Assembly (NCBI GenBank): GCA_016124895.1
Contig: WGMU01000111.1
Span: 1-64,000 of the forward strand
From: a bacterium
GTDB taxonomy: Bacteria; Planctomycetota; Planctomycetia; Planctomycetales; Planctomycetaceae
Direction: 5' to 3'
Length of the DNA stretch: 64,000 nucleotides
Shown: positions 15,436-20,580 of the stretch, piece after piece
How positions within the stretch are numbered: position 1 is the stretch's first letter
Layout of the letters: each line of letters begins with the position of its first letter
Program-made: the position numbers and the translations under genes
The notes under the pieces: model-generated
Databases searched by the model: none
What the model was told of the DNA's origin: nothing
The model's input: the letters and a program-made list of their open reading frames with translations, nothing else

Positions 15436-16341
15436 TCAGTTTTCAGATTTCGGTCTGCGACGTTTCGCCTGACGATGCAGACGTTCGCGGGTTTTGCGGA
15501 TCGGCAGCAGCATTTCGGTCATCGATTGCCAGCGATCGCGCGGGTCGCGTTCGAGTCCCTTCATGATCGTCGCGGCGACTTCCTCGTCGATACCGGGGCA
15601 GCGGTCGCGGAGATCGCGCGGCGGCTGATTGATGTGGTGCAGCACCGACTCCAGGGTCTCGCCCGCATCCCACGGAAGCTCGCGTGTAAACATCTCGAAG
15701 CAGGTCACGGCAAACGAAAAGATGTCAATCCGCTGGTCCGTCTTCTGCCGCTTGATCAGTTCCGGAGCCATATAGTTGGCCGTGCCGGTCCGGTTGCCGG
15801 GGGCCTGAAACGGCGGCGTGTTCGGAACGACCAGTCCGAAATCGATGAGCTTGACTTCCGCGTCCTTTGTGACGACGACGTTCCGCGGACACAGGTCGCG
15901 GTGGATCCAGCCTTCCTTGTGGAAGTACTCGACGGCCTGGCCGAGCTGGATCATGATGCCCAGGCGGTTTTTGCGCAGCAGTTCGTGCTGCATGTCGATC
16001 AGAAAGCTGAGCGATTCGCCCTCAACGTATTCCATGACGAGGAACTGCTCGTCGTTCGTCGAGATGCCGTGCTCCAGCGTGCTGACGATGTTGGGATGCT
16101 TGAGCTGAACGGCGATTTCGCCCTCGGTCGGTTTGTTAAGCTGCGGCGGAAAGCGGGCTTCGAGTTTTTTCGTCCGGACTTTATCGAGCACTTTGAGAAC
16201 AACTTCGCGACCGGATGCGGAATCGCGGGCACGCCAGACTTTCGACATGCTGCCGCTGCCTGCCTGACCGAACATCTGAAACCGTTTCTGAATGTCGGTT
16301 TTGACGACCTTCGGCTGAAACAGCTTTTTCAGAAAGTTCAT
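15436..16341 (-). CDS. Soluble Ser/Thr protein kinase-like protein
   Basis: 301 residues, almost only a kinase domain (about 20-285), no membrane segment. It keeps a glycine-rich loop (FGQAGSGSMSKVWRAR), VVLKVL with the ATP-anchoring Lys, HRD in WIHRDLCPRNVVV, and DFG in KLIDFGLVVPN, followed by GTANYMAPE. In the catalytic loop the Lys normal in Ser/Thr kinases (HRDxKxxN) is replaced: the sequence is HRDLCPRN. The catalytic Asp and Asn remain, so activity is plausible but not certain. The C-terminal tail is Arg/Lys-rich. A dispersed palindromic element separates it from accD upstream. Confidence 0.85.
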   Translation of the reverse strand: MNFLKKLFQPKVVKTDIQKRFQMFGQAGSGSMSKVWRARDSASGREVVLKVLDKVRTKKLEARFPPQLNKPTEGEIAVQLKHPNIVSTLEHGISTNDEQFLVMEYVEGESLSFLIDMQHELLRKNRLGIMIQLGQAVEYFHKEGWIHRDLCPRNVVVTKDAEVKLIDFGLVVPNTPPFQAPGNRTGTANYMAPELIKRQKTDQRIDIFSFAVTCFEMFTRELPWDAGETLESVLHHINQPPRDLRDRCPGIDEEVAATIMKGLERDPRDRWQSMTEMLLPIRKTRERLHRQAKRRRPKSEN

Positions 16342-16510: not shown

Positions 16511-17362
16511 CTAGCCGCCGCAGTAGTCGATGATGCGGGCGATTTCGCTGCGAAGATTGTGGCGGTGAACGATTCGGTCAACGAATCCGTACTTCAGTAG
16601 AAACTCGCTGGTCTGGAACCCCGGCGGCAGCTTTTCGTTCACCGTTGCCTGAACGACGCGCGGGCCGGCAAAACCGATCAGCGCTTTCGGTTCGGCGAGG
16701 ATGACGTCACCGAGCGCCGCGAAACTGGCGGCGACTCCGCCCATCGTCGGGTTCGTCAGAATCGAGATGTAAAGCCCGCCGGCTTCCCGGAACCTCGCCA
16801 GAGCGGCCGAGGTTTTACCCATCTGCATCAGCGAGAGGATGCCTTCGTGCATCCTCGCCCCGCCGCCTGATCCACTGAGAATGATCAGCGGCAGCTTCAT
16901 TCTGGTGGCCGCTTCAATGGCCCGCGTCAGCTTTTCTCCGACGACCGACCCCATGCTGCCCATGATGAAATTCGAGTCGGTCAGCGCGAAGACCAGCGGG
17001 CGACCGCGCATGTAACCCTTGCCGGCGATGCAGGCCTCTGAGAGCCCGGTGCGTTTCTGCTCGGTCTTGAGCCGTTCGGCGTAAGGCTTCTTGTCGACAA
17101 ATCCCAGCGGATCGGCCGGCTGCAGTTCAGTAAACCATTCCTCGAACGAGTCTGTATCGAGAAGCTGCTGAACGCGGACGCTGCCCGGCACCGTGAAGTG
17201 GTAATCGCACTCCGGGCAGACGTTCTGATTCTCATCGACCGAACGTTGAAACACGGTCGCCTTGCACTCGGGACATTGCGTCCACAGACCTTCGGGAACT
17301 CCACGTTTGGCCATACCCGTCTTCTGCTGCCACGATTCCACATCCGGCTTGACCCGGCTCAT
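16511..17362 (-). CDS. accD: Acetyl-CoA carboxylase carboxyltransferase subunit beta
   Basis: 283 residues, the usual length of AccD. With AccA it transfers the carboxyl group from biotin to acetyl-CoA, making malonyl-CoA for fatty acids. The N-terminal zinc ribbon has C30-x2-C33 (CPEC) and C49-x2-C52 (CPEC). [32 protein letters not shown] and [14 protein letters not shown] are the crotonase-fold substrate-binding segments, and [11 protein letters not shown] is also characteristic. ATG at 17360-17362. accA is not in the window. Confidence 0.97.
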
Positions 17363-17450: not shown

Positions 17451-18101
17451 TTACTCGTCGCTGGAATCATCGCCGCTGCCGGCTTTCACGCTCGCGGCGA
17501 GCGGGATCAGGTGGCTCACGCCGACGCGATGCCCGTTCGTCCCGGTGGTTTCGATCACCTCGACCAGGTTGTCGTCGCAGCAACCGAACAGCGATCCGCA
17601 CAGGTCGTCGGGTTCTTCGCCGCGCAGCGTGAAGCTTATGAGACTCGCGAGTGGCTCGGAAGCAACGACGGCAAAGCAGTCGTACTTCCTGAGCGGCTTT
17701 TTGAGCACAGCCGCCAGACGTTCGACGGCGTCGGTCGTCATCTCACCGTTCGGTGGGCAGACGGTTTCCGGAGCGTCTTCCCACTGCCGGAAGACGGAGG
17801 GGAACTTGCGCCGTACCTCGTCAATACACAGCCCCTGCCAGAGGCCCTGATCGACGTTTCGCAGGTCATCTCGTTCCTTGAGTTTGAGATCGAGCGAGCT
17901 GGCGATCTGCGCCGCGACCGACGCGCACGGTTCACACGGTCCAGTCAGGACGGCCTCGACCGGCAGAGTGCGCAGTGCGTCAATGACTTTCGTCAATTGC
18001 GACTGGCCCCGGTCGTTGAGAGGCAGTTCGAGAGAACCCTGAATTCGCTTCTGCTCGTCAAAGTCAGTACACCCTGGGCGAACCAGAACGACTTTGGACA
18101 T
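17451..18101 (-). CDS. Histidine-phosphatase-fold protein with degenerate active site
   Basis: 216 residues. The N-terminal VVLVRPGCTDFDEQKRIQGS, PLNDRGQSQL and NVDQGLWQGL follow the phosphoglycerate mutase/histidine phosphatase family closely. However, the catalytic His of the RHG motif is Pro9 (R8-P9-G10), the second pocket Arg is missing (GPCEPCASVAA), and the second His is Glu149 (VVASEPLASL). Three of the four catalytic-pocket residues are lost, so I expect a non-catalytic binding or regulatory protein. It starts 156 bases upstream of nothing else on the strand than accD (stop 17451, accD start 17362) and follows rpe by 12 bases, suggesting a shared transcript rpe - this gene - accD. Confidence 0.75.
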   Translation of the reverse strand: MSKVVLVRPGCTDFDEQKRIQGSLELPLNDRGQSQLTKVIDALRTLPVEAVLTGPCEPCASVAAQIASSLDLKLKERDDLRNVDQGLWQGLCIDEVRRKFPSVFRQWEDAPETVCPPNGEMTTDAVERLAAVLKKPLRKYDCFAVVASEPLASLISFTLRGEEPDDLCGSLFGCCDDNLVEVIETTGTNGHRVGVSHLIPLAASVKAGSGDDSSDE

Positions 18102-18113
18102 TAACTTGTCTCG

Positions 18114-18818
18114 TTACAGGGAAGAGCTGACCGGGCGACTCCCCAGCTTTGTCAGCTCGCAGATGGCAGCGCCGTAATCGACTTCGTCGAAAATGGCACT
18201 GCCGACAACAAACAGTTCGGCTCCCGCCGCGGCACAGTCAGCGATGGTCGCAGGACCAATGCCGCCGTCCACCGAGAGCACCGTCTCCGGATGAGTCAGT
18301 TCACGCAGACGCTGCAGCTTATCCAGTGCGGCTGGCATGAATTTCTGCCCGCCAAAACCCGGCTCAACGCTCATCACGAGCACCAGGTCGCAGTCCGGCA
18401 GAAACTGTTCGATCGCTTCGACGGGCGTGCCGGGGTTAATGGCCAGTCCGGCCAGCCGTTCGGCAGCGCGAATCCGTCGCAGCAGCGGCCCGGAGTCCGG
18501 AACCGCTTCGTAGTGAAAGGTGATGGCTTCGCAGCCGGCTTTCAGGTACTCGTCGAGATACCGGTCCGGCTCGGAGATCATCAGGTGAGCATCGAAGATC
18601 GCATCCGTCATGGGACGCAGTCTCTCGAGCACCATTGGCCCGTAGGACAGATTGGGGACAAAGTGTCCGTCCATTACGTCGAGATGCAGGACGGCCGAAT
18701 TCGCGGCGTCCAGCAGTTCAATCTCCCGATGCAGATTGCCGAAGTCACACTTCAGCATCGAGGGAGCGACGATTGGTATCCGGCTTCGCAGCCTGTTGAG
18801 TATGGCCGAACGGCTCAT
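18114..18818 (-). CDS. rpe: Ribulose-phosphate 3-epimerase
   Basis: 234 residues from the ATG at 18816-18818. Rpe interconverts ribulose 5-phosphate and xylulose 5-phosphate in the pentose phosphate pathway. [11 protein letters not shown] starts the TIM barrel; [18 protein letters not shown] and DAHLMISEP carry metal-binding His and Asp residues; [20 protein letters not shown] and [12 protein letters not shown] complete the metal and phosphate sites. The frame is open 42 codons further upstream, but that part is Ser/Arg-rich and unlike the family, so I used the internal ATG. The gene just downstream starts 12 bases after the stop. Confidence 0.95.
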
Positions 18819-19065
18819 GGGCGAAGGTGCCCCATTGAATTCAGAACGGTTGCCCCGGCCAGAGAACCACCGGGAAGAGCGGGACATTGAACCCAAACCG
18901 GGCTCCGCAATCAATTCCGAAGTCGAAACTGGTGAGCGGACCATCAGATTCCGATTCGTTGATGCTGGAATCTGCGACGCCTGGACGCGACAAAACGAGG
19001 GATTTCAAGACGAACAACCGCGAAGCAGCAGCAGAGACACCCTCGTTCAGAGCCCGGAGCTTGCC

Positions 19066-20580
19066 ATGAGACCGCTCGATTTTTCTCCCGCCGCGCGCAT
19101 GGTCGGTTTGCTGCTTTTGCTGACGGTACCTCTCCGTCCTGCTTTCGCCGCCGACCCACCGTCGCATACCGAAGCCCGTAAGGCTCTGGAGAAAGCCGTC
19201 AGTTTCTTCCGGAACGATGTCTCGGCGTCTGGTGGCTACCTGTGGCAGTACAGTGCTAATCTGAAGCTGCGCGAGGGCGAAAATGGCGCAACCGCCACTC
19301 AGGCCTGGGTGCAGCCGCCGGGGACTCCGACCGTCGGTGAGGCACTGCTCGAAGCGTACCTGCTCTGCGGTGAGCCTGTTCTGCTGGACTCTGCCAAAGC
19401 AACTGGCCACGCGCTCGTGCAGACGCAGCTCGTCTCCGGCGGCTGGGACTACCGCCTCGAATTCGACCCGCGGGAACGTTCGGGCTGGCAGTTCCTTGTC
19501 GATCAACAGGCCGGCCTGAAACTGAGTCCGAAGGCGAAGAACGTCACGACGCTCGACGATGACAACACACAGTCCGCCCTGCGCTTTCTGATGAAACTCG
19601 ACACGGTGCTCGACCACCGCGACAAGCCGCTTCACTCCTGCATCGAGTACGCGCTGTCGTCGCTGCTGAAAGCTCAGTACCCCAACGGCGCGTGGCCGCA
19701 ACGATTTTCCGAACCGCCGAACCCGGCCGACTTCCCCGTGCTGAAGGCGTCGTATCCGGACACGTGGCCGCGTGAGTACCCGAAGCTCGACTACCGCAGC
19801 TACTACACGTTCAACGACGACACGATCGCCGACCTGATCGACACGATGTTTCTGGCCGCAGAACTCTACAAGGCTCCGCAGTATGCCGCGGCAGCCGAGC
19901 GGGCTGGCGACTTCATCATCCTCGCGCAGATGCCCGACCCGCAGTCGGCCTGGGCCCAGCAGTACAACGCGAAAATGCAGCCCGCCTGGGCACGACGCTT
20001 CGAGCCGGCCTCGGTCACCGGCGGTGAATCGCAGGGCGTCATCCGGATTCTGATGACGATCTACCGTCACACGGGCAAGGACAAGTATCTCACGCCGATC
20101 CCGAAGGCACTCGACTGGCTGGAACGTTCGAAGCTTCCTGACGGCCGCCTCGCTCGCTTTTACGAGCTGAAGACGAACCGGCCGCTTTACTTCACGAAGA
20201 AGTACGAACTGACTTACGACGACAGCGACCTGCCGACGCACTATGGCTTCCAGATCGGCTCGAGCGTCAAACGGCTGCGCACTGAGTTCGACCAGATTCG
20301 ATCCCAGCCGCGCGAAACAACTCCGCTGTGGACGACGGACCGACGCAAGCCTGGCAACAGCAACTCGCTGCGTGCCGAAGTCCGACAGCTCGTTGATTCA
20401 ATGGACACCCGCGGTGCATGGCTCGAAGAAGGCCGCCTCAAGGACGTTGGCGACGACCGGGCGCAGCCGATCATCACGACGAAGACCTTCATCCGCAACC
20501 TCCGCACGCTGAGCCGCTATCTTGCCGCGACAGATTCGGACTCATCGCGGAAACGTGTGGGGACCAGCAGTATCCGGTGA
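19066..20580 (+). CDS. Secreted pectate lyase, polysaccharide lyase family 10 type
   Basis: 504 residues from the ATG at 19066, which has GGAG 6 bases upstream. Residues 1-28 are a signal peptide (MVGLLLLLTVPLRPAFA, cleavage before ADP). The mature part has the family's blocks: LDDDNTQSALRFL, QYPNGAWPQRF, YYTFNDDTIADLID, AWAQQYNAKMQPAWARRFEP and SVTGGESQGVIRILM. The Arg in ARRFEP is a candidate for the catalytic base of family 10 lyases. It would cleave polygalacturonate by beta-elimination in the periplasm or outside. The gene is divergent from rpe. The open frame reaches back to 18652 but that section overlaps rpe antisense and is not used. Confidence 0.85.
   Translation: MRPLDFSPAARMVGLLLLLTVPLRPAFAADPPSHTEARKALEKAVSFFRNDVSASGGYLWQYSANLKLREGENGATATQAWVQPPGTPTVGEALLEAYLLCGEPVLLDSAKATGHALVQTQLVSGGWDYRLEFDPRERSGWQFLVDQQAGLKLSPKAKNVTTLDDDNTQSALRFLMKLDTVLDHRDKPLHSCIEYALSSLLKAQYPNGAWPQRFSEPPNPADFPVLKASYPDTWPREYPKLDYRSYYTFNDDTIADLIDTMFLAAELYKAPQYAAAAERAGDFIILAQMPDPQSAWAQQYNAKMQPAWARRFEPASVTGGESQGVIRILMTIYRHTGKDKYLTPIPKALDWLERSKLPDGRLARFYELKTNRPLYFTKKYELTYDDSDLPTHYGFQIGSSVKRLRTEFDQIRSQPRETTPLWTTDRRKPGNSNSLRAEVRQLVDSMDTRGAWLEEGRLKDVGDDRAQPIITTKTFIRNLRTLSRYLAATDSDSSRKRVGTSSIR

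Follow-up and report, generated by a model that had tools for sequence, protein, structure and literature searches.

Why a gene encoding an apparent histidine phosphatase that lacks its catalytic residues should lie between rpe and accD is the question raised by an ORF, referred to here as X (216 amino acids; 17451..18101, minus strand), in the window, namely the 64,000-nucleotide stretch of planctomycete DNA analyzed (contig WGMU01000111.1, assembly GCA_016124895.1, positions 1 to 64,000). Delineation of X is based on the ORF itself, its match to PF00300, its orthologues and its predicted fold. The gene rpe, encoding ribulose-phosphate 3-epimerase (18114..18944, minus strand; PF00834, E 3e-67), ends 12 nt upstream of X, and accD, encoding the acetyl-CoA carboxylase carboxyltransferase beta subunit (16511..17362, minus strand; PF01039 and PF17848), lies 88 nt downstream, the three genes sharing one strand. 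A Ser/Thr protein kinase gene (15436..16341, minus strand; PF00069, E 8.5e-46) comes after accD. Promoter and terminator scans returned no signal exceeding that of shuffled sequences. Elsewhere in the window, a pectic acid lyase is encoded by a divergent neighbor of rpe (19066-20580, plus strand; PF09492, E 3.3e-22), and a single ORF of 9846 amino acids (24847-54387, plus strand), containing repeated domains and, toward its end, Gly/Asp-rich repeats, apparently encodes a giant surface or secreted protein.

In a Pfam profile search, X matched PF00300 with a score of 90.6 bits (E 1.4e-25; gathering cut-off 21.7), with residues 4-147 being covered. An AlphaFold model of X, generated from an input comprising the window sequence and those of 79 of 80 named loci (L151 was excluded, as it is truncated at the end of a contig), gave a mean pLDDT of 90.8. 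The best fold match to this model in the PDB was the phosphoserine phosphatase PspA (4ij6; Z 24.4, 198 residues aligned, rmsd 2.4), with other branch-1 enzymes also being matched. The histidine phosphatase fold assigned in a first-pass annotation of this DNA is thus borne out by both profile and model, which together point to X being, by descent, a branch-1 histidine phosphatase. X nonetheless reached no NCBIfam equivalog cut-off, scoring 81.8 bits against the 350 of NF045917 and 83.3 bits against the 162.9 of TIGR03162 (PspA / alpha-ribazole phosphatase).

The catalytic pocket was considered next to that of Aquifex aeolicus HFP, which comprises R8, H9, N15, R58, E82 and H149 according to its description (PMC12051542), and the residue numbering of which is shared by X as far as residue 82. 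Five of these six canonical residues are changed in X: H9 is replaced by Pro, N15 by Asp, R58 by Pro and E82 by Asn, and the second His is lost. The first pocket Arg, R8, is kept in the window X. When X was aligned jointly with 23 active-type paralogues, a label that denotes catalytic residues present in the sequence and carries no activity measurement, R8, H9, N15, R58, E82 and the second His were all found to be invariant in the latter. The affected codons, all on the minus strand, are codons 8-9 of the former RHG motif (R8, P9; 18075..18080), codon 58, where Pro replaces the second pocket Arg (17928..17930), codon 82, where Asn replaces the Glu proton donor (17856..17858), and codons 148-150 (S-E-P; 17652..17660), the alignments revealing that the second catalytic His was lost here, most likely at 148, next to a conserved acid and an invariant Pro. 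At residues 9, 58 and 82, respectively, His, Arg and Glu appear in 23/23 active-type paralogues.

That these changes are not peculiar to the window was seen upon alignment of 47 orthologues, the window included, from which L048-L050 were excluded as active-type paralogues. Residue 8 is Arg in 39 rows, His in four, Lys in three and Gln in one. Residue 9 is never His (Pro 41, Ser 5, Ala 1), residue 15 never Asn (Asp 43, Glu 2, Lys 1, Cys 1) and residue 58 never Arg (Pro 30, Ser 10, Ala 5, Asn 1, Gln 1), while Asn82 and Pro150 are invariant. An acid occupies position 149 in every row (Glu 38, Asp 9), and no His occurs at positions 144-152 in any of the 47 orthologue rows. Conserved replacements at sites where the active-type paralogues are invariant are accordingly P9 (87% of rows), D15 (91%) and N82 (100%), with positions 58 and 148 being variable among the orthologues. 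Further residues, i.e., Q17, L24, L87, C115 (85%) and P117, are conserved in X only when compared with the 23 active-type paralogues. In a second set of 80 named loci, residue 149 is non-acidic in 13, and a single row, L159, presents a His at column 149, without H9. Those loci were recovered with the seed N[LV]DQGLWQ, and N82 and D84-Q89 are therefore conserved by construction in that set, for which reason N82 was counted in the 47-row set.

The register of the second His differs with the method employed. Both a profile-profile alignment by hhalign and the joint alignment with the 23 active-type paralogues place it at Ser148, while phmmer against PspA places it at Glu149. From these alignments, the register can be fixed only to within one residue, with the Ser148 position being the most likely, and because hhalign and the joint alignment agree on Ser148, Glu149 is a doubtful replacement for the second His. 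Of the substitutions proposed in the first-pass annotation, the conversion of RHG to RPG through Pro9 and the absence of the second pocket Arg from GPCEPC, where Pro is found at 58, both hold. The second His is absent, as had been claimed, but its replacement by Glu149 gives way to the likelier Ser148. Likewise, the loss of three of four catalytic residues is real but undercounted, five of six having been lost, with N15>D and E82>N having been missed. Pro9 and Glu149 were expected to be conserved if X were a conserved pseudo-phosphatase; the former is retained in 41/47 rows (otherwise Ser or Ala) and the latter position is acidic in 47/47, although neither residue is strictly fixed. Orthologues keeping RHG together with the second His, which would have spoken for local decay, did not appear in the 47 rows, and no reactivated copy was seen among them, as expected of a conserved pseudo-phosphatase. 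Because both histidines are missing, phosphohistidine catalysis of the known type is, at the level of sequence, excluded for X, and we infer that X is devoid of the activity of an active histidine phosphatase.

X is widely, although not universally, distributed. An orthologue was detected in 47 of the genomes of 59 relatives, the window's own genome being counted. In a broader, class-wide sample of 148 genomes, 106 yielded strong matches (E at most 3.8e-46) and 42 yielded none of that strength. The next-best match below the strong set scored 5e-31, and those of the weaker matches that were read proved to be active-type paralogues. No strong match was found in any listed member of family f3, and plasmid records yielded only distant matches, every one of less than 60% identity. 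The named records containing X are titled as planctomycetes, among them Singulisphaera acidiphila, Tautonia sociabilis, Paludisphaera soli and Lacipirellula limnantheis, with L141 being titled 'bacterium'. The record titled Candidatus Kuenenia stuttgartiensis (L152) presents a locus of the type seen in Planctomycetaceae records, and its label may be wrong.

Of 14 pairs compared, 13 gave a finite dN/dS estimate for X, ranging from 0.008 to 0.141, the L112-L113 pair being saturated; in the same comparison, values were 0.017-0.173 for rpe and 0.006-0.091 for accD. Strain-specific decay of X was thereby ruled out, given the 47 orthologues and these ratios. As the pocket substitutions are fixed or nearly fixed across a bacterial class under purifying selection, they go beyond what chance would produce. 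One stop codon was noted within the X match in each of four genomes of the class (G304, G039, G048 and G306).

The linkage of X to rpe and accD, also proposed in the first-pass annotation, proved to be general, with at least one of the two genes being kept in all 46 of the relatives' loci. X is preceded by rpe in 41 of those loci and followed by accD in 42. The gap between rpe and X is 50 nt or less in 31 of the 41, with the two genes overlapping in seven of these 31. Of the 80 named loci, 77 include accD, 69 include rpe and all include at least one of the two. X is retained beside accD only in G037, G046 and G050 and beside rpe only in G003, G045 and G054, so that neither gene is thereby shown to be the partner of X. 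In 12 of the 13 genomes without X in which both genes were found, rpe and accD are either far apart or on separate contigs; these do not amount to 12 separate events because these are mostly draft genomes and relatives share losses. The thirteenth, G026, presents rpe and accD some 93 nt apart. Given this arrangement and the 42 of 148 class genomes without a strong match, X can be dispensed with. No match for rpe and none for accD was obtained in three other X-less genomes, G017, G018 and G044. When evolutionary distances were compared over 38 loci, a partial correlation of 0.39 (5-95%, 0.26 to 0.52) was obtained for X and rpe given accD, as opposed to 0.06 for X and accD given rpe, values to which we attach little importance, given the limited variation of accD and the relatedness of the rows. 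They point weakly to Rpe over AccD, with the loci containing X and accD alone pointing the opposite way.

The origin of X was considered by examining accD loci outside the class. From 115 accD matches, 40 such loci were retained, mostly one per family, with genomes known to carry X being excluded. No histidine phosphatase was found beside accD in these 40 loci with four profiles, the few above-threshold matches being short fragments. Across the phylum, adjacency of rpe and accD recurs, with rpe lying directly upstream of accD in 23 of the 40 loci (L189-L228) and no X in between, and for this reason the rpe-accD pair probably predates X. In seven further loci, from five other families, a dead copy of X lies directly upstream of accD, preceded by rpe in six of the seven. 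These copies contain RAG, RDA, KSE, RCS or RGS instead of RHG, and Glu or Gly at position 82. In a 44-row tree, 16 active-type paralogues were split from all X-type rows at 100/96, with the seven other-class copies falling on the X side, and the 21 Planctomycetia X rows formed one side of a branch supported at 99/97. This fits a single insertion, which we infer, followed by early loss of catalysis, and, on the sequences compared, the change of E82 to Asn is one that belongs to Planctomycetia. A fusion of X and rpe, suspected in L063 given a 634-codon open frame, was ruled out, as the rpe match lies in another frame.

The kinase gene following accD was also considered as a functional pair with X. 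It follows accD in eight of ten accD loci (L161-L170), nine of the ten being from X-less genomes, and was not found in the X-containing loci L032, L033, L035, L040, L042, L045 and L046, these being among those in which more than 1.2 kb was read past accD. Such pairing was set aside, since the kinase persists in genomes without X and was not found in some with X; the kinase gene is linked to accD rather than to X. Adjacency of kinase and accD was seen in many Planctomycetia loci, with only two weak matches (29% identity) in the 40 loci of other classes, and may reflect control of acetyl-CoA carboxylase by phosphorylation.

Having been kept for so long between rpe and accD without catalytic residues, X probably fulfills a non-enzymatic job at this locus. 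The reading we somewhat favor is that X serves as a non-catalytic regulator or adaptor of the rpe-accD operon. X would accordingly represent a dedicated pseudoenzyme subfamily of the branch-1 histidine phosphatases, a copy of which would have been inserted once into the older rpe-accD pair in an ancestor common to Planctomycetia and some neighboring classes, would have lost phosphohistidine chemistry early and would since have been held by purifying selection. In Planctomycetia, the rebuilt cleft would consist of P9, D15, N82 and E/D149-P150, together with the lid motif GLWQG...CPPEGE. As the lid and the rebuilt floor are both conserved, the cleft presumably retains a binding role, and the linkage to rpe and accD suggests that the target is a product of the operon. 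Made together with Rpe and AccD, X would act without catalysis, with the former active-site cleft serving to recognize either a non-phosphate ligand or part of a partner protein. More tentatively, and on balance doubtfully, X may be a class-wide regulator in which an anion pocket has been turned into a partly acidic recognition site, i.e., a non-catalytic subunit or switch coupling Rpe (pentose-phosphate pathway) to AccD (the committed step of fatty acid synthesis) in planctomycetes.

Other explanations have to be weighed against a regulator or adaptor. According to the first-pass annotation, X could signal carbon status by binding a phosphorylated metabolite, which would occupy the former phosphate pocket. 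Retention of R8 in 39 of 47 orthologues, and the sharing of an operon with rpe, the product of which acts on sugar phosphates, would agree with this. Yet of the basic pocket formed by R8, H9, R58 and the second His, only R8 is left, itself His, Lys or Gln in eight of 47 rows, and acidic residues have been installed at 15 (43 Asp and two Glu of 47) and at 149 (47/47). With the positive pocket so reduced and acids added, phosphoryl binding is improbable, and the proposal is an unlikely one. It is slightly less probable still that the rebuilt cleft (D15, N82, E/D149, C115) catalyzes some other reaction or binds a metal. New polar residues are indeed conserved exactly at the old catalytic positions, as is C115 in 85% of rows, but the copies from other classes lack N82, having Glu or Gly instead, and we know of no enzyme of the histidine phosphatase superfamily that works without the nucleophilic His.

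Alternatively, X would pair with an active histidine phosphatase as the non-catalytic half of a heterodimer, as in the case of PspB, a notion that we consider quite unlikely. The closest solved structure is that of PspA of Hydrogenobacter thermophilus, and the genome of the window does contain one further full-length His_Phos_1 gene. On the other hand, no active paralogue lies beside X in the loci read, and among 30 X-bearing genomes, chosen mostly for presenting a single match in the 148-genome class search, 11 (G005, G029, G030, G036, G161, G192, G211, G229, G244, G282 and G287) contained no other match extending over more than 107 of the 194 profile positions. Pairing with an active paralogue is, therefore, not general. 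Slimmer yet are the chances that X acts chiefly in cis, its translated sequence serving as a spacer that couples the expression of rpe and accD. While X does lie between the two genes, overlapping rpe at seven of 41 junctions, and the genes are apart in most X-less genomes containing both, selection at the protein level on specific residues is not expected of a spacer, six genomes keep X with one gene only and G026 joins the genes without it. Hardly credible, finally, is a slowly decaying relic without function, for which the several lineages without X and the four interrupted matches might speak, but which is countered by the dN/dS ratios, residues invariant over 47 orthologues and class-wide synteny.

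As a non-catalytic regulator or adaptor or otherwise, X defines a real, conserved and so far unnamed pseudoenzyme subfamily. No account of this pseudoenzyme was found in the literature searched, and few bacterial pseudoenzymes of the histidine phosphatase superfamily seem to have been described. In the main text of an essential-gene study of Planctopirus limnophila (PMC10632474), the terms histidine phosphatase, phosphoglycerate mutase, ribulose and acetyl-CoA are all absent. X genes are likely annotated in databases as histidine phosphatase or phosphoglycerate mutase, and metabolic models relying on such names would be misled. An old, operon-linked X with invariant replacement residues offers a clean test case for the re-use of a phosphatase pocket and, should X control the carboxyltransferase or Rpe, would reveal an additional level at which lipid and carbon metabolism is controlled in a phylum whose cell biology is unusual.

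Several known systems offer points of comparison. A. aeolicus HFP, a phosphatase of the riboflavin pathway (9mmh), adopts the same fold as the X model (Z 23.2), with nearly the same pocket numbering. Unlike X, HFP is enzymatically active and retains the full set of six pocket residues (PMC12051542). PspA, the iPSP of H. thermophilus (4ij5/4ij6), is the best PDB match to X in sequence (E 6.4e-16) as well as in fold; the two are 23-25% identical, and in wild-type PspA (4ij5) the RHG His and the remaining catalytic residues are intact, whereas X has lost five of six pocket residues. PspB of H. thermophilus iPSP2 is reportedly a histidine-phosphatase-like, non-catalytic subunit that works with an active paralogue. 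Such a partner was not seen at full length in 11 of the 30 chosen X-bearing genomes. A further parallel is offered by XcAP-1, XcAP-2 and XcAP-3 of flea saliva, secreted animal proteins of the acid phosphatase type, which belong to branch 2, as opposed to X, a bacterial protein of branch 1. In these, both catalytic histidines are lost, with the RHG His having become Gly and the second Ser or Pro, and the proteins are inactive yet bind ligands (PMC10728186). The same study describes a fatty acid modelled near the dead site, as well as the binding of amines and leukotrienes/lipids (PMC10728186). The XcAP proteins provide a precedent for the re-use of a dead histidine phosphatase site.
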